Origin: Eublepharis macularius
Lineage: Eukaryota; Chordata; Lepidosauria; Squamata; Eublepharidae
DNA length: 64,000 nucleotides
Reading direction: 5' to 3'
Assembly: GCF_028583425.1 (NCBI RefSeq)
Contig: NC_072790.1
Coordinates: 64,380,052-64,444,051, forward strand
Below the pieces are notes generated by a model. The model did no database searches, was not told the origin of the DNA, and saw only the letters and a list, made by a program, of their open reading frames with translations. The translations under genes and the position numbers were made by a program. Of this stretch, positions 11,150 to 44,910 are shown in pieces; within the stretch, counting starts at the first letter, position 1, and every line of letters starts with the position of its first letter.

Positions 11150-12112
11150 GAGTCCCTATGTATGTATGTATGTATGTACGTATTTATTTATTTATTTATA
11201 GTCCACCTTTCTCACTAAGACTCAAGGCGGATTACATAGTGTGAGATTAGTACAATCAATAGCAAGGATATTTCCATACAGTGTCTAGGACATTTCCATA
11301 AACAATGTCATAGGATAAATCAATGGAAGTTTACAAAGATATAGCATTAGCAAGGATCCAATACAGAGTTGAAGAACTGCTGGAACAGAACATAATAAAT
11401 TCTAGGGCTAACATTAAACAACATGAAGTACAGGTAGTATATAGGAGTACCAATTTAAATCAACAGATAATATGTAAGGCAACATAGTGCTGGAGTCTAT
11501 GGTCCCTAACTCGTTAGTGAAGCATCTGAGACCCCCTCCCTACAATATCACCCTCATATCTGAGTAAAAAAGCTTTTTTGATTCAGTTTTGCATAGTTTT
11601 GGAAAGCCAGGAGAGTGGGGGCTCTCCTGACCTTCTCAGGCAGGCCATTCTACAGGGTAGGGGCCACCACAGAGAAAGGTCGTGTACAGGCTGCTGTTAG
11701 TTTTGCCCATGTGCAGGCTGGCACCTGCAAGAGACCCTGTTCAGATGAGTGAAGCTGCCGTGGAGGGACATAGGGAGGGAGGTGGTCCTGTAGGTATGCT
11801 GAACCAAGGCCATGAAGAGCTTTGTATGTGCTCAGTGCTCAGTTCAATACGTTGAACTGAGCACAGTAACTGATAGGTAGCCAATGGAGTGACTGTAGGA
11901 TGGGAATGATCTTCATGCTCCTGCTCGCTCCTGCTAGCAGTTGAGCTGCAGCATTTTGCACCAATTGGAGCCTCCAAGTTAACTTAGATGGGAGACCAAT
12001 GTACAGTGCATTACAGTAGTCAAGTTTTGATGTTGGCCAGGTGGCCAAGTTGGCCGTATCGAGCTAAGAAGCCATCTTCCAGGCTAGAGTGAGATTGTAG
12101 TAAGCATTTTTT

Positions 12113-13589
12113 ATTTTTTTTATTTTTATTTTTTAATTACTAATGCTACAAAAAGGGAAAAATGGGAACAGGGGGAAAGGGAAAAAACAACATATAAAAA
12201 CACACACACTACATCTACAGGTATTGCTTTCCCTTCATACTACAATTGTTTAAAGTTAAAACTTTATAATATGCTATTAGATTGGTAGATCTTATAAAAT
12301 GCAAACTACAATCAGGATCAGGTCTTCTTCCCCCCCTTGCGCCTCGGTCGCAGCTCTCTCTGAACAGCTACAGTAGCTGTGCTCGCTCCCCCCCCCTTCA
12401 GCTTCTGTTGAAACTCTTGATGATTAGACACAAAGTCCCTTAGCTGTGTTTCTGATGTTATCTTGTAGGCTTGGTCTTTATAACTAAACCAGATACCTTC
12501 CGGAAATAACCATTTGTATTTTATTTCACGCTTCCTCAGAAGAGCTGCAAACCTTTTATATTTAAATCTTCTTTTCCGAGCTAAAAATGGAACGTCCTTC
12601 AATATCTTAACCTTGTTGCCCAGAAAGTCCAAATCCACATTGTATGAATTATATAAGATGGTGTCCCGAGTCTTCTTAGATGAAAAGTCGATAATAATCT
12701 CGCGAGGCAGCTGACGCTTTGTTGCATATTTTGAAGATGTCCGACAGACTTCCAAAATGTCGCTTTTTAACTCTTCTTTAGTTGCCTTCGCGGATGTCGC
12801 CAAAAGTTCTGACACCAAGTCCTTTAAATTTTCACTTTTTTCCTCCTTCACATTCTGGAGATGCAATACCGTCTGAGCACGATCCACTTGTAGCCCTATC
12901 AGTTGATTCTCCAAAAGCTTTAATTCTTTATTTGGTGCCTTCATGAGTTCTGCGTTTTCCGGAGCAGACTGCTCTGTCCCCGAGGCTGCTTCCTTAATGG
13001 TTTTCACTTCGCTCTCAATTGAGCCAACCCTCTGACCGATTTCATTCAGCTTATCAACAAAGGGCTTTATAGCTTCAACAACCGACCGCTTAACCAGCTC
13101 TTCAAGAGACTCTCCTTTCCCCTGCAAGGCAGCCGAAACAGATTTGCCCAGAGCCGGGCTCTGCTTTTTCGTCACCATCTTGCGGGGGGGGGGGAATCCG
13201 CCAACTAAGTTCCGAGACTCAATGAAGGGGAAGATATCCGAACCTTCTTAGCTTCAACTCCCACCAATCCTTCGCATACGCTTGAAACGACAGAAGGGAT
13301 TCGCTACTTACAGGTTTTCACCTTAAATCTGCTTTTTGCCGTTCTCCATGGCCCAGCAGCACGCGATGTGCTGCGCAAGTCTGCCGGCCTCTGTAGGAGC
13401 AAACGGGCAATTTACCCCCTGCATCGACTTCAGGGGGCTCTTCCCGACGCACTCCGGACCCTGACCCCCTCACTGGGAGTCCTGGGGGTTAACCATCGCA
13501 GGTCAACCGCCCGGTCAGGCTGCTCGGGCGCTTCCTCCCGGACCTGCGGAGAGGAGCGTCCGACATGGCCGGGAAAACGAAACTGAATC
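12113..13589 (-). mobile_element. ORF1-only L1-derived retrotransposon (half-L1, HAL1-like)
   Basis: A 1,477-bp insertion in an L2, flanked by an exact 16-bp duplication, GTAGTAAGCATTTTTT (12097-12112 and 13590-13605). On the minus strand it has a CpG-rich leader of about 410 bp, one open L1-type ORF1 (12318-13178), a trailer of about 190 bp and an A-rich tail with AATAAA-like motifs. No ORF2 sequence is present between the ORF1 stop and the tail, so this is not a simple 5' truncation. The layout matches mammalian HAL1 elements, which carry ORF1 only and depend on reverse transcriptase from other LINEs. The duplication and tail show that it moved by target-primed reverse transcription. The sequence trailer is pyrimidine-rich on the sense strand, unlike the L1 at 38762-44892. 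Confidence 0.82.
12318..13178 (-). CDS. L1-type ORF1 protein of the half-L1 (286 aa)
   Basis: An uninterrupted 286-codon frame from ATG to stop. Residues of about 15-120 are rich in Glu, Lys, Leu and Val in a heptad-like pattern, as expected for the trimerising coiled coil of L1 ORF1p. From about residue 105 an RRM-like stretch begins with LHLQNVKEEKSENLKDLV. It continues to YATKRQLPREIIIDFSSKK, which aligns with IATQRKLPRDVIVQFTTRN in the ORF1 at 39668-40393. The C-terminal domain contains KYKWLFPEGIWFSYKDQAYK, matching RYRWELPEGVSFEFGGVKKT there. The last 20 residues are basic (RPRRKGGKKT). The role expected from the family is RNA binding and chaperoning. Overall identity to the other ORF1 is clearly low, so the two belong to different L1 lineages. 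Preservation of the frame despite divergence suggests recent insertion or selection on the parent lineage. Confidence 0.85.
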   Translation of the reverse strand: MVTKKQSPALGKSVSAALQGKGESLEELVKRSVVEAIKPFVDKLNEIGQRVGSIESEVKTIKEAASGTEQSAPENAELMKAPNKELKLLENQLIGLQVDRAQTVLHLQNVKEEKSENLKDLVSELLATSAKATKEELKSDILEVCRTSSKYATKRQLPREIIIDFSSKKTRDTILYNSYNVDLDFLGNKVKILKDVPFLARKRRFKYKRFAALLRKREIKYKWLFPEGIWFSYKDQAYKITSETQLRDFVSNHQEFQQKLKGGGASTATVAVQRELRPRRKGGKKT

Positions 13590-13855
13590 GTAGTAAGCAT
13601 TTTTTGTGGCTGCCTTAAGTTGCCAGACCCTTTAAAAAATTCTAGAACCCTCTGGGTGTGGTCCGAGAGCAGAAACCTGTGACTGAGAAAGTGGATTCCA
13701 GAATGGGTCCAGAGGTAGAGGACAGGACAGAGCTTTGCTAGGCTTGGAGATGGAGTCATTTTTCTTTTCAGTGGGTCTAGATGTGATAAATGTGTGTATG
13801 GGGAGGTTACAATATGGCTAGCCTCTGCCTCTATTACCTGTCCTCCCCAACTCAG

Positions 13856-38761: not shown

Positions 38762-39667
38762 CCGGTTTGGGATCCATGGAGGTCTAACGCAGCTCCACTT
38801 GCGGAGCTGACCGGACTGCCGTTTTAACCGGCGGGCGGGGTGAAAATAGCCCGCGGCCGACTGCTCTCAGGCGGAGAGCAGGCAAAGAACGCTCAAGACC
38901 CCAGGGTGAGATAGATCTCGGACGAGGGGGGGCTCTACACAACGGGTCCCCTCTCGATCCTTGAGGTCCCACCTTGCGACGGGTCGGCTACAATCTCTGC
39001 GGCAGTTTTGGGGCCAATTCGGCTGCCATAAGACCTACATACCCAAGCTTCGATTGGGGGAAGAAGCTGAGAGGAGAACTTAAAATCGAAACAGCGATTA
39101 CAACCCGAGAAAAGTGAAGAGAAGGTAAAGATCATTATCTTCCGATACGGGACAGAATGACAAAAACAGAGAGGAAAAAAAGTAGATTTTTAAACTGCAA
39201 CAGACTAGTGAAAAGGAGGGGAAGACTCGGCAGGAGTTGTATCTGAAAAGAGACTAAGTTTAAAGAAGTTATTAAAGAAAACGGACTATTGTTTTGAATA
39301 CCTGTGGCTTTGGAGCTGTGAGAAAAAGACACCATCGCGAGATCTGCTGTGGGAAGACGGGAGACAGGAAGTGCGTAATAACAATAGAGTGGCTGGAGAG
39401 AAGCGGCCCTTGCAGGAGGGCAGGAAGAAGGGAATTGCCATCTTTGAAAGGGGAAGGGTCGCGGCTTCAGCGGAAAAGGAAGTAGGCCATCTTGGATTAC
39501 AAAATCATAGAGAAACCATAGAGAAAAGACGCCCGACATTTTGGACTCTTTAAAATTTAATTTTTGCAAGAAGACCGGGACATTTAAAATAAAAAGGCTT
39601 TAAATTTTACGCCACGGAGTTAAGGAAGAGAGCGGACTCGTGGGAGCGAGCTAAAGCAAGCCCCACG
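38762..39667 (+). promoter_or_regulatory. L1 5' UTR with presumed internal promoter
   Basis: The first 180 bp are GC- and CpG-rich (for example GGCGGGCGGGGTGAAAATAG at 38830). The remainder turns purine-rich. Full-length L1s carry an internal RNA polymerase II promoter here; no particular factor site was identified. The antisense strand holds open frames (longest 144 codons at 39135-39569) that I do not interpret as genes. Confidence 0.6.
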
Positions 39668-40393
39668 ATGTCAAAAAAAGAGTGGCAATCGGCAATAGAA
39701 AACCTGGATAAAAAACTTTTAGATGTGATTAAAGAACTTAAGGACACGAAACTGGAACTGATTAAAGAGGTTAAAGAGGTTACACAGACAGTAAAATCGG
39801 AGCTGTCAGAAGTGAAAAAAGGTATGGAAACAATACAAAGTGAACTACAAGGAACGCAGCAGAGAGTTAAAACAGTAGAAGACGCGATGGAGAATTTAGC
39901 AGACACGCAACAAACAGAGTTGAGACTGGTGAAGGGGAGAATGTCAGTTGCAGAAACTAAACACATGGAGAAGCAGCTACGTTTTCGTGGCTTGCCAGAA
40001 GTGGAAGGAAAGTCAGCGCAAGAACAGATGACTGAGGTGTTAGCTGAATACCTGGGGAAGGAGGAGGAGGAAGTTGTGGCTATCCTAGATGTGGCATATC
40101 GTGTGAACTCGAGAATTGCAACCCAGAGGAAACTACCAAGAGATGTGATTGTGCAGTTTACGACACGAAATATGAAAGAGAAGATTGTGACAAAACAGTT
40201 TCAAGATCCATTGGAGATTGATGGCAAGACGATCATTATAATGAAGGAACTACCTAGGTCAGTGTTATTGGACCGGAAAAAATATAAAGTGCTAATTCAG
40301 ATCTTGAAGGACATGAAAATCAGGTACAGATGGGAGTTACCAGAAGGAGTGTCCTTTGAGTTTGGAGGGGTAAAAAAAACGTATCAGATCTGA
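39668..40393 (+). CDS. L1 ORF1 protein (241 aa)
   Basis: ATG to stop without interruption. Residues of about 5-90 form a coiled coil with repeated L-x-x-x-L/V-K-E-L/V heptads (for example LIKEVKEVTQTVKSELSEVK). The RRM begins near KQLRFRGLPEVEG, and the C-terminal domain contains RKLPRDVIVQFTTRN and RYRWELPEGVSFEF. The protein is expected to trimerise, bind the element's own RNA in cis and act as a nucleic-acid chaperone. At 241 residues it is shorter than mammalian ORF1p (338 in human), mainly through a shorter N-terminal region. It lies in the same frame as ORF2, 54 bp upstream of it with in-frame stops between, so ORF2 needs re-initiation. It is homologous to but clearly diverged from the ORF1 at 12318-13178. 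Confidence 0.9.
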   Translation: MSKKEWQSAIENLDKKLLDVIKELKDTKLELIKEVKEVTQTVKSELSEVKKGMETIQSELQGTQQRVKTVEDAMENLADTQQTELRLVKGRMSVAETKHMEKQLRFRGLPEVEGKSAQEQMTEVLAEYLGKEEEEVVAILDVAYRVNSRIATQRKLPRDVIVQFTTRNMKEKIVTKQFQDPLEIDGKTIIIMKELPRSVLLDRKKYKVLIQILKDMKIRYRWELPEGVSFEFGGVKKTYQI

Positions 40394-40447
40394 GCGAGAG
40401 ATGGAGCGATTTATTAAGGACAATGAAAAAGACTTACCAACAAGATT

Positions 40448-43400
40448 ATGAGCATGGAATGTAAAGTAATATCTTGGAATGTAAATGGACTAAACTCACC
40501 GAATAAGAGGAAAAATATTTTTCACCGGCTACTAAAACAAAAATGTGATATTGTTTGTTTGCAAGAGACCCATATTAGAAAGCAGGATGTAAAATATTTA
40601 AAATCTGGAAAATTGGGCAAAGAATTTGTAGCGGCCTCCAACAAGAAAAAAAGAGGAGTGGTGTTGTACATAAAAGAGGAGCTACAGCCAAAATTTGTTA
40701 TGAGAGATGTGGAAGCCAGATTTGTAGCAGTGGAATGTATTTGGAATTTAAAGAGAGTGTTGGTAGTCGGACTTTATGCACCTAACGGTGCAAAAGAAAG
40801 CTTCTTTGAGGATTTGAGGAAGCATTTAGATGACCTTTCATATGACCAGATAATTCTTGCTGGAGACTTCAATGGAGTGACAGACTTGGAACTAGATAAA
40901 AAGACTACAACGGCACAAAAGAAAAGAGGACTATTGCCAAAGCTCTTTTTTGAGTTGATTCAACAAGAGACTCTCGAAGATGTATGGAGGAGAGAATATC
41001 CTAAAAGTAGACAGTTTACTTTTTATTCTGCAAGGCACTCTACATTATCAAGAATTGACATGATCTGGGCCTCAAAAGACTTAGCGTTATGGACTAAGGA
41101 GGTAGAAATAATGCCGATGGTAGGCTCAGATCACAACCCAATTATGTGGAAACTAGGAAAAAGGAGAAAGAGGAAAGCATGGAGAATAAATGAGGACTTG
41201 TTACAGGAAAGAGAGAATATGGAAATATTGAGAAGAGAGACAAAGTTTTTCATACAATATAATGTGAATAAAGAAGTACCAACCAATAAAGTTTGGGATG
41301 CTTATAAGGCGGTTATAAGGGGCATACTAATGGACTTAAATGGTAGAGCAAGAAAGAAGAAAGAGGAGAAAAGACAAGAGATTGAGGAGAAAATAAAAGC
41401 CAAAGAAATACAGCTAAAAAAGAGACCAGGGAAAAAGAAATTATACCAGGAAATTAAAATACTCCAAGAGCAGCTAACAGCAATGAGTAATAAAGAATTG
41501 GAGTGGAATCTTAAAAGATTGAATCAAAAAGCGTTTGAGGGTGCCAATAAACCTGGGAAGTACCTGGCATGGCAATTGAAGAAGAGAAGGGAAAAGAAAA
41601 TAATAAACAAAATTTGTGAAGACAACAAAACGTATCTGGAGCAGACTACCATTAGTAGAGCCTTTTATAAATTTTACGCTAAGCTGTACAATAAGAAAGA
41701 AGTAAATAAAGAATCAATAGCGACATATCTGGAGAAAACCAAACTTCCAGAAATCTCGGAAGCTTGGAGAAATAAATTGAACAGTGAAGTAACTGACGAG
41801 GAAATAAGCAAGGCAATACAATCCGCAAATCTAGGAAAGGCGCCAGGGCCAGATGGACTTACGGCTAAATTTTATAAGACAATGGCTAATGAACTGGCAC
41901 CATTCCTAAAAGAGGTGATGAATGGAGTTTTTAGGGATCAAAGGATTCCAGAAACTTGGAGTGAAGCGAACATATCATTGATCCCAAAAGAGGGCCAAGA
42001 CTTGACTAACGTGAAAAATTACAGACCTATATCGCTACTTAACAATGACTATAAAATTTTTGCGAAGATATTGGCGGAGAGACTGAAGGGATGGCTCTCG
42101 GAAGTTATAGAAGAGGAACAAGCAGGCTTTTTGCCAGACAGAAATATAAGAGATAACTTAAGGACAGTGATCAATGCTATTGAATATTATGACAAGCGTT
42201 GTGATAAAGAGGTTGGTTTCTTCTTTGTTGACGCTGAAAAGGCGTTTGACAATTTAAACTGGGACTTTATGTTTGCCACTATGGAAAAGCTACAATTGGG
42301 AGAAAGATTCATCAGAGCAATCAAGGAAATTTACAGAGACCAGACTGCAGCAATTGTGGTGAATGATGAAGTGACTAAGAAACTGACGATTAGTAAAGGA
42401 ACAAGACAAGGTTGCCCGTTGTCTCCACTGTTGTTTATTTTAGTATTGGAGATTCTGATGATACAAATACGACAAGATGAGGAAATTCGTGGAATAAAAA
42501 TAAAGGACTATTCATATAAGGTCAGAGCATTTGCGGACGATATAATGTTAATTGTAGAGGACCCATTGGAGAACATGCCAAGAGTGATAGATAAGATCAA
42601 GGAGTTTGGGGACTTGGCAGGTTTTTATATCAACAAAAAGAAGTCAAAGATATTATGTAAAAATATGACTAAGCAGAAACAACAATTGTTAACGGAAACA
42701 ACGGATTGTGAAGTAACAAGCAAAGTGAAATATTTGGGAGTTGAACTGACTGCAAAGAATATAGATTTATTTAAAAACAACTATGAAAAACTATGGACTC
42801 AGATAGAGAGAGACTTGATTAAATGGAATAGACTGAATTTGTCATGGTTGGGCAGGATTGCAGCAGTTAAGATGAATGTGTTACCAAGAGTAATGTTTTT
42901 GCTACAGACAATACCAATCATCAGAGACTCTAAACAATTTGAAAAATGGCAGAGAAAAATATCAGATTTTGTTTGGGCAGGCAAGAAGCCTCGAGTGAAA
43001 GTAAAAGTTTTACAAGATGCAAAGGAAAGAGGCGGAATGCAACTGCCCAATCTGAGACTTTACCATGATGCAATCTGCCTAGTTTGGTTGAAAGAGTGGA
43101 TGACATTAAAGAACAAGAAACTATTAGCCCTAGAGGGATATAAAAAAATTTTTGGATGGCACGCATACCTATGGCATGACAAAGTAAAGGTCAACTCGAT
43201 GTTCCTGCACCATTTTGTACGGAGAAGTCTATATATAATCTGGAAGAAGTACAGAATTTACTTACAAGAAGGAACTCCCTTGTGGGTGGTTCCATATGAG
43301 GTGATAGATCCGAGAGCTGTTGATAATGAACAACAATGTTTAACGTACAAAGAAATAACTAAAACTGAAGCAGCTATACTTAGAATAAAGACGCAAGAGG

Positions 43401-44209
43401 AACTATCACCTAATTACGACTGGTTCCAGTATAGACAGATCAGAGACTTATATAACTCGGACTCTGTAAAGGGGGGTATACGAACAGAGAACTCGGAACT
43501 AGAGCAGACCCTTCTTAAAGAAGACAAGAAACGAATATCCAAGGTATACCAAGTACTGTTGAAATGGTATACCGAGGACGAGACAGTTAAAACACAGATG
43601 GTGAAATGGGCTATAAATTTTAATAAAGAAATAACAATGGAGGCATGGGAATACTTGTGGAAAACTACAATGAAGACAACGACATGTACTAATATTAAAG
43701 AGAACATTTACAAAATGATCTATCGTTGGTACATGACACCAAAGAAGATCGCGCTAGGGAATTTGAACACTTCTAATAAATGCTGGAAATGTAAGAAGCA
43801 TGAGGGCTCCCTCTATCATATGTGGTGGTCATGTGAGGTAGCCAGGCAGTACTGGGGGGAAATAATAAGAGAAATGAGTGAAATTTTACAGTTTCAAATA
43901 AATAAGAACCCAGAACTCCTGCTACTAAACTTGGGAATGGAGGGAATTCCAGCCCATCATAGGACGTTAACATTTTATATGACAGCAGCAGCTAGACTTT
44001 TGTATGCGCAAAAATGGAAAGTACGAGAAGTGCCAACTATTGAAGATTGGATCTACAAATTGCTGTACATGGCAGAGATGGACAAGATGACAAGAAAACT
44101 GAGAAATCTGGACTCAGGGCAGTTTAACACAGATTGGGAGAAGCTGAAACAATATTTGGAGAAGAAATGGGAGGTGGGAGGAAAACTGTGGCAGTTTGAG
44201 AACTACTGA
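40448..44209 (+). CDS. L1 ORF2 protein: endonuclease and reverse transcriptase (1253 aa)
   Basis: One uninterrupted frame. The N-terminal APE-like endonuclease shows WNVNGLNS (catalytic Asn11), LQETH (Glu40), LYAPNG, AGDFNG, SRIDMIW and GSDHNP, that is, all the expected catalytic motifs. The reverse transcriptase has NYRPISLLNNDYKI, VDAEKAFD (Asp595), GTRQGCPLSPLLF and FADD (residues 695-698). The C-terminal part carries CWKC, then H and C in CX2CX8HX4C spacing from residue 1112, the L1 zinc knuckle. Length is close to mammalian ORF2p (1275). The protein nicks target DNA and primes reverse transcription there. The start at 40448 is chosen as the first ATG after two in-frame stops; a second ATG follows two codons later. 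No missing catalytic residue was seen. Confidence 0.95.
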   Translation: MSMECKVISWNVNGLNSPNKRKNIFHRLLKQKCDIVCLQETHIRKQDVKYLKSGKLGKEFVAASNKKKRGVVLYIKEELQPKFVMRDVEARFVAVECIWNLKRVLVVGLYAPNGAKESFFEDLRKHLDDLSYDQIILAGDFNGVTDLELDKKTTTAQKKRGLLPKLFFELIQQETLEDVWRREYPKSRQFTFYSARHSTLSRIDMIWASKDLALWTKEVEIMPMVGSDHNPIMWKLGKRRKRKAWRINEDLLQERENMEILRRETKFFIQYNVNKEVPTNKVWDAYKAVIRGILMDLNGRARKKKEEKRQEIEEKIKAKEIQLKKRPGKKKLYQEIKILQEQLTAMSNKELEWNLKRLNQKAFEGANKPGKYLAWQLKKRREKKIINKICEDNKTYLEQTTISRAFYKFYAKLYNKKEVNKESIATYLEKTKLPEISEAWRNKLNSEVTDEEISKAIQSANLGKAPGPDGLTAKFYKTMANELAPFLKEVMNGVFRDQRIPETWSEANISLIPKEGQDLTNVKNYRPISLLNNDYKIFAKILAERLKGWLSEVIEEEQAGFLPDRNIRDNLRTVINAIEYYDKRCDKEVGFFFVDAEKAFDNLNWDFMFATMEKLQLGERFIRAIKEIYRDQTAAIVVNDEVTKKLTISKGTRQGCPLSPLLFILVLEILMIQIRQDEEIRGIKIKDYSYKVRAFADDIMLIVEDPLENMPRVIDKIKEFGDLAGFYINKKKSKILCKNMTKQKQQLLTETTDCEVTSKVKYLGVELTAKNIDLFKNNYEKLWTQIERDLIKWNRLNLSWLGRIAAVKMNVLPRVMFLLQTIPIIRDSKQFEKWQRKISDFVWAGKKPRVKVKVLQDAKERGGMQLPNLRLYHDAICLVWLKEWMTLKNKKLLALEGYKKIFGWHAYLWHDKVKVNSMFLHHFVRRSLYIIWKKYRIYLQEGTPLWVVPYEVIDPRAVDNEQQCLTYKEITKTEAAILRIKTQEELSPNYDWFQYRQIRDLYNSDSVKGGIRTENSELEQTLLKEDKKRISKVYQVLLKWYTEDETVKTQMVKWAINFNKEITMEAWEYLWKTTMKTTTCTNIKENIYKMIYRWYMTPKKIALGNLNTSNKCWKCKKHEGSLYHMWWSCEVARQYWGEIIREMSEILQFQINKNPELLLLNLGMEGIPAHHRTLTFYMTAAARLLYAQKWKVREVPTIEDWIYKLLYMAEMDKMTRKLRNLDSGQFNTDWEKLKQYLEKKWEVGGKLWQFENY

Positions 44210-44892
44210 AGTATAATAAAAGTATAATAGAGGGGGGTGACTTTACCGGGAGAGGAAGAGATAAATGTGAATTTATAAGCAGTTAGATTAACAGATTGAT
44301 ATATATATAGATATATATAGGTTAATAGATAGAATATTGATAGAAAATAATTAATGATAAGGTTTAAATATAAGGATTGAGTAACCAACAATATTTTCTT
44401 TCTTTGATAAGATTTATATAATGCACCAAACTGAATGTACAGAAGAGTCAAATTGATTGACTATGTGATGAGCTATATAGAATTACCATAAAAAGATAGA
44501 ATGAGTAATATATAGAGAATAAGTCAAATTGTTTGATTTAAGTGTAAGATTTTTATGGTTTATGATATATAGGTTTATGATATATAGAAATATTTAAAAC
44601 TGGAAAATGGGATAAATTGTTTATCCAAGATGGAAACAAAGACTTACAGTTTGGGTATATAACAAGAAAAGTAGTTAAGGATGTACTGCTTAATATAATG
44701 GAGAATGTATATCTGTTTTAGATAGAGGAATTTAATAGAAGTAAGGGAAAAGGGACAAAGGGTGGGAAAGCTGTTGGAAGTCAACAAAAGGGGGGGAAAG
44801 GGAGGGGGTTAGAAATGAAAAATTTGGGGAAAATTGGATGTAAATGTAAAAATAACGGATTCTAACCCAATAAAAAAATTTTTCAAAAAAAA
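44210..44892 (+). promoter_or_regulatory. L1 3' UTR with G-rich purine tract and poly(A) signal
   Basis: The first 400 bp are AT-rich with TATATA runs. Between about 44744 and 44815 lies a purine tract with several G-runs (for example GGGGGGGAAAGGGAGGGGG). AATAAA at about 44868 precedes the A-rich tail. A guanine-rich 3' UTR tract is a known L1 feature in mammals and may form a quadruplex. Confidence 0.7.
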
Positions 44893-44893
44893 A

Positions 44894-44910
44894 AGAAAAT
44901 TGATGGACTT
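44894..44910 (+). repeat. Right target-site duplication of the L1
   Basis: Exact copy of AGAAAATTGATGGACTT, continuing into TAGCAG as the palindrome predicts. Confidence 0.9.

Follow-up and report, generated by a model that had tools for sequence, protein, structure and literature searches.

An ORF1-only, HAL1-like L1 family, probably dependent on a resident L1 for its mobility, in an apparently non-mammalian genome

The window, by which we mean the whole stretch of 64,000 nucleotides analysed, holds on its minus strand an insertion with an L1-type ORF1 and on its plus strand an L1 with both open reading frames. The features used below are as follows.

12113-13589, minus strand: whole unit, 1,477 bp, consisting of leader, ORF1, short trailer and A-rich tail
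12097..12112: target-site duplication at the element's 3′ end, an exact 16-bp direct repeat
12113..12133, minus strand: A-rich tail (T-rich on the plus strand), read in the sequence; the aligned copies finish in this stretch too
12134..12317, minus strand: trailer (3′ UTR), 184 bp, abutting ORF1, with trailer matches elsewhere in the genome
12318..13178, minus strand: ORF1, open over 286 codons, with the coiled coil, RRM-like domain and C-terminal domain of L1 ORF1p
13179..13589, minus strand: leader (5′ UTR), 411 bp, its start common to other copies and to one family C copy (L120)
13590..13605: target-site duplication at the element's 5′ end, an exact 16-bp direct repeat
38762..44892, plus strand: resident L1, with ORF1 at 39668-40393 and ORF2 at 40448-44209, the latter open over 1,253 codons
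38744-38761 and 44893-44910: target duplication of the resident L1, exact, 18-bp

The earlier note on this DNA had described an intact 286-codon ORF1, a short trailer, an A-rich tail and an exact 16-bp duplication, all of which we confirmed. With the domain architecture of L1 ORF1p, the unit encodes an L1-type ORF1p; structure prediction from the single sequence was poor (pLDDT 49.5) and was repeated with 18 sequences. The unit contains no ORF2 with endonuclease and reverse transcriptase and so is not an autonomous L1. Its leader is 58% GC with a CpG observed/expected ratio of 0.83 and is presumably an internal promoter. DNA similarity between the unit and the resident L1 is limited to short chance matches. 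A tblastn search of viral contigs returned no relatives of the unit, and none of five other ORFs in the window had a Pfam match above the cut-off.

The further copies that the earlier note proposed looking for proved numerous, with leader and trailer in common and ORF2 absent. We searched 2.24 Gb of genome in 72 contigs; the number of candidates at first look does not measure copy number. The best 40 of 5,008 candidates from the DNA search, the window copy among them, all cover almost the complete unit; the 39 others are 88-96% identical to it and have the same ends. By protein search, at least 136 loci carry the ORF1 of this family, which we call family A, at 86-100% identity, and 106 of the 136 matches, counted by eye, have no listed stop. 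Among 30 ORF1-matched loci that we examined, one of them the window copy, 28 cover the unit nearly end to end and the remaining two start at unit positions 46 and 238. Sixty-one distinct units, 40 from the DNA search and 21 from the protein search, were aligned. A frame of at least 275 codons from the family ATG is present in 44 of the 61, a count in which the protein-found units are biased to intact frames. Nested subfamilies are visible in this alignment, and its terminal branches have a median of 0.021 substitutions per site, with ages uncalibrated. Six loci (L099, L102, L104-L107) have leaders 95-97% like the window's and 3′ parts only 79-84% alike, pointing to mosaics or fast-diverging 3′ parts.

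Both ends are present in 58 of the 61 aligned units, and 45 of these 58 are flanked by exact target duplications of at least 10 bp (3 of 1,143 for mismatched pairings); the median duplication over all 58 is 16 bp. The duplications begin A-rich following a T or C at the nick, at TT/AAAA-like sites, as expected for the L1 endonuclease, with the A-richness of their starts inflated by matching into the A-tail. By target duplication, A-tail and L1 endonuclease site, the family A copies were dispersed by L1-type retrotransposition.

The earlier note would have been wrong had most copies with this leader continued into an ORF2, and we saw ORF2 after none of the best 40 leader matches and at none of the best 40 trailer matches, in stretches that were read or bounded by coordinates. 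Every one of the 40 trailer matches has adjoining ORF1 sequence or a leader 1.27-1.49 kb away: 11 are units from the DNA search, 3 adjoin ORF1 protein matches, 7 are closed at 1.27-1.49 kb by a leader match, by coordinates, and 19 were read, with ORF1 sequence abutting the trailer in all and several of them 5′-truncated. The 40 leader matches comprise 17 known units, 3 that adjoin ORF1 matches, 8 that pair with trailer matches and 12 that were read. Nine of these 12 have the ORF1 end and the trailer; L118, a leader match with an internal deletion, nevertheless keeps its trailer; and L116 and L117 show no match to ORF2 within the DNA that was read, though one may lie farther off. The identical search detects ORF2 3′ of ORF1 in three L1 loci (L110, L114, L115), which served as a positive control. 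Absence of ORF2 is thus a trait of the family and not a truncation of a single copy. Among the best 40-150 candidates scored per search, no L1 pairs this ORF1 with an ORF2. Two side observations come from these loci: L116 and L117, which are independent units, pass into unrelated DNA at unit positions 968 and 971, and L096 carries about 1 kb inserted within ORF1.

The earlier note had also proposed comparing synonymous and non-synonymous rates in ORF1, and here codon-position bias and dN/dS bear out that ORF1 was under purifying selection in the lineages that gave rise to the copies. Across the 40 DNA-found copies, substitutions present in at least three of them fall 30/20/52 over codon positions 1/2/3 (p = 3.8e-4) and 15/8/31 once CpG sites are dropped, while singletons from the same copies fall 62/67/63, with no position bias. 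Leader and trailer controls are flat for shared and singleton changes alike, with no p below 0.069. Normalised N/S is 0.48 for transitions and 0.47 for transversions among shared changes, and 1.04 and 0.79, respectively, among singletons, where 0.79 instead of 1 for transversions is a point against our main reading. Between subfamilies A and B, compared by their majority states, dN/dS is 0.14; between family A and one C copy it is 0.13 over ORF1, at a dS of 0.76. As read from these substitution patterns, selection has kept ORF1 intact in the source lineages and the copies drift.

A codon model was run first on all 61 units and later on the 40 DNA-found copies, for which ORF1 gave an omega of 0.53 on internal and 0.67 on terminal branches, with frame-shifted controls at 1.86/1.19 and 1.34/0.85. 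Leader pseudo-codons, however, gave an internal omega of 0.32-0.63 with LRT values up to 22.6. Because this control failed, we set the model aside and gave it no weight, although its direction agreed, and used instead the codon-position test with its leader, trailer and singleton controls.

A related unit, which we call family C, sits inserted within an A unit (L109:1-547 with L080:396-959). The best 40 matches to its 547-bp piece are 95-98% identical to that copy, self excluded, so that C looks younger than A. The 5′ and 3′ C pieces are spaced by 261 bp at all 26 loci common to both searches, which leaves no room for an ORF2 in those 26. In the C copy L120 the leader aligns with that of A from unit base 1 (82% over 374 columns), and the alignment of A, B and C continues through the junction between the ORF1 stop and the trailer. 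Their common ancestor was therefore most likely ORF1-only already, as far as alignment can tell, with A, B and C as its descendants.

The state of ORF1 in family C is mixed. One frameshift, near ORF1 codon 70, is common to a large C branch that was nonetheless amplified. The best 150 matches to an N-terminal C query all continue through the query's frameshifted end, and in none does the frame at the start of ORF1 exceed 161 codons; this match list is biased by the query having been taken from a frameshifted copy. With a less biased middle piece, 49 of the best 150 matches have stop-to-stop frames of at least 297 codons, 5 have 264-296, 80 have 215-263 and 16 are shorter. Family C thus seems to have been amplified along two kinds of branch, one with ORF1 intact and one frameshifted. 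The spread of frameshifted units argues against a strict requirement for ORF1p in cis.

That spread is also what would be expected if the unit were SINE-like, mobilised in trans as any A-tailed RNA might be, with ORF1 as a passenger, and the absence of DNA similarity to the window's resident L1, short chance matches aside, fits such a unit as well. Against this, the preference of shared changes for third positions and dN/dS values of 0.13-0.14 show that ORF1 was long retained, and we consider a passenger ORF1 unlikely. We give somewhat less credence still to the proposal that a host gene derived from ORF1, comparable to L1TD1 in mammals, gave rise to the copies as processed retrocopies, instead of a mobile element with many sources. 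A source under selection whose copies drift neutrally would fit retrocopies of a conserved gene too, but the subfamilies are nested, the sister family C, at dS 0.76, was amplified as well, and leader, ORF1 and trailer are all common to A and C; moreover, the frameshift near codon 70 is common to many C units, so that a broken copy seemingly became a source. A single insertion of an L1 transcript that had been spliced, cut short by premature polyadenylation or deleted internally, to which the AATAAA motifs within the tail of the window unit might be taken to point, has virtually no chance of being correct and was rejected, given the 39 other near full-length units with the same ends at 88-96% identity, most with target duplications of their own.

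We regard the window feature as very probably one member of an L1 family, A, that is HAL1-like and non-autonomous, has B and C as its sister subfamilies, and would be mobilised in trans by an L1 resident in the genome. The ORF1 of the resident L1 is present at 97% or more in at least 150 genome loci, and this young element's ORF2 matches human ORF2p with 558 bits over 1,232 residues, which we take to be too distant for a therian L1. In most relatives the match to the resident ORF1 stops at codon 238 of 241, and their open frames are longer. The resident L1 belongs to a candidate helper family, which might provide ORF2p in trans. In the mechanism we propose, Pol II transcription would begin in the GC-rich leader, producing an RNA that would code for L1 ORF1p alone and end in the short trailer and A-tail. 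ORF1p would bind its own RNA in cis and may give that RNA an edge, and an L1 resident in the genome, one that uses the A-tail, would supply endonuclease and reverse transcriptase in trans.

What ORF1p contributes to an L1 RNA beyond ORF2p is still debated. An ORF1 that stayed under selection after loss of ORF2 offers a natural test of a benefit in cis, with the frameshifted C units as a natural control. The suggestion that ORF1p gives a trans-mobilised RNA some advantage holds less firmly than the earlier note put it: a benefit in cis is what we infer, and the spread of the frameshifted C sublineage speaks against a strict need for ORF1p.

A Pfam ORF1 search of the genome gave 22 matches, six loci of which were read. 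Three are the ORF2-bearing L1s L110, L114 and L115, and the other three belong to a second ORF1-only family, D.

L111, L112 (304-1955) and L113: family D copies, each a unit of 1.65 kb, with ends common to all three

Target duplications flank the three D copies, 15, 15 and 17 bp long where cross controls give 3-7, and one of the copies sits within an L1 ORF2. In a genome search with D, 33 of the best 40 of 201 candidates run unbroken through at least query bases 7-1636, with identities of 83-100%, the query itself counted, and more distant relatives of D reach down to 43% among the matches listed. The D ORF1 has 326 codons in L111 and is 22-24% identical to that of A over 143 columns; the A ORF1 likewise shares just 22-30% identity with those of the ORF2-bearing L1s sampled in the genome. 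Several ORF1s at G000 C1:4.9-7.1 Mb resemble that of D, with 54-57% identity to it and near-identical scores and frames; they may be a young family, a duplicated block or a gene array.

Whether ORF1-only L1s evolve repeatedly, as the earlier note had it, receives a divided answer: family D is a second such family, but the ORF1 tree is compatible with one origin, since an AU test of the sisterhood of A-C and D accepted all three topologies (p-AU 0.54, 0.31 and 0.54). A wider account has a real chance of being right, although we stop short of favouring it. A, B and C would have lost ORF2 before they split and diversified to a dS of about 0.8 under selection on ORF1, D (with an ORF1 about 24% identical) would have done so separately, ORF1p would pay its own RNA in cis with ORF2p borrowed, and the frameshifted offshoots would be short-term parasites of a durable life form in an apparently non-mammalian genome. 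The presence of two ORF1-only families in a single genome of this kind would imply that half-L1s are no peculiarity of mammals.

In the open-licence literature we found no ORF1-only L1 named outside mammals; key papers fall outside that scope, and a prior report is possible. For lizards, a relaxed L1 system has been predicted from other retrocopies, and the available passages of that source name no lizard HAL1s (PMC5322556). Among known systems, L1TD1 resembles family A as an ORF1-derived protein lacking ORF2, but is described in the passages available as a domesticated host gene and not a dispersed repeat (PMC4161310). The SIDEs of Lepidoptera (Persaeus, with its partner Zenon) are likewise internally deleted LINE derivatives amplified alongside a LINE partner; unlike family A they are CR1-derived and short, and the available passages mention no conserved ORF1p (PMC6740152). 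With LINE-1 (L1) itself, family A shares the ORF1p fold, the A-tail, the TT/AAAA-type target and the target duplications, and differs in having no ORF2. The closest counterpart is HAL1 of mammals, which encodes ORF1p only and, according to passages of the sources, arose several times (PMC5753468, PMC5322556, PMC4859970, PMC8535693). As described there in part, mammalian HAL1 has, like family A, ORF1p only, a poly(A) tail and target duplications, and it is L1-derived and needs the enzymes of full L1s, as is probably true of family A too (PMC5753468, PMC5322556, PMC3627910). Family A differs from it in that the host is seemingly non-therian, in that frameshifted branches were amplified too, and in an ORF1 only 22-30% identical to those of the sampled ORF2-bearing L1s, with no parent found among the best candidates. 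For guinea pig HAL1, the passages available report that ORF1 coding capacity was retained for ~29-44 Myr and infer that cis-encoded ORF1p is required (PMC3627910), an inference that the frameshifted C units call into question. Family A belongs to the HAL1 kind known from mammals, in which long conservation of ORF1 is not new in itself.
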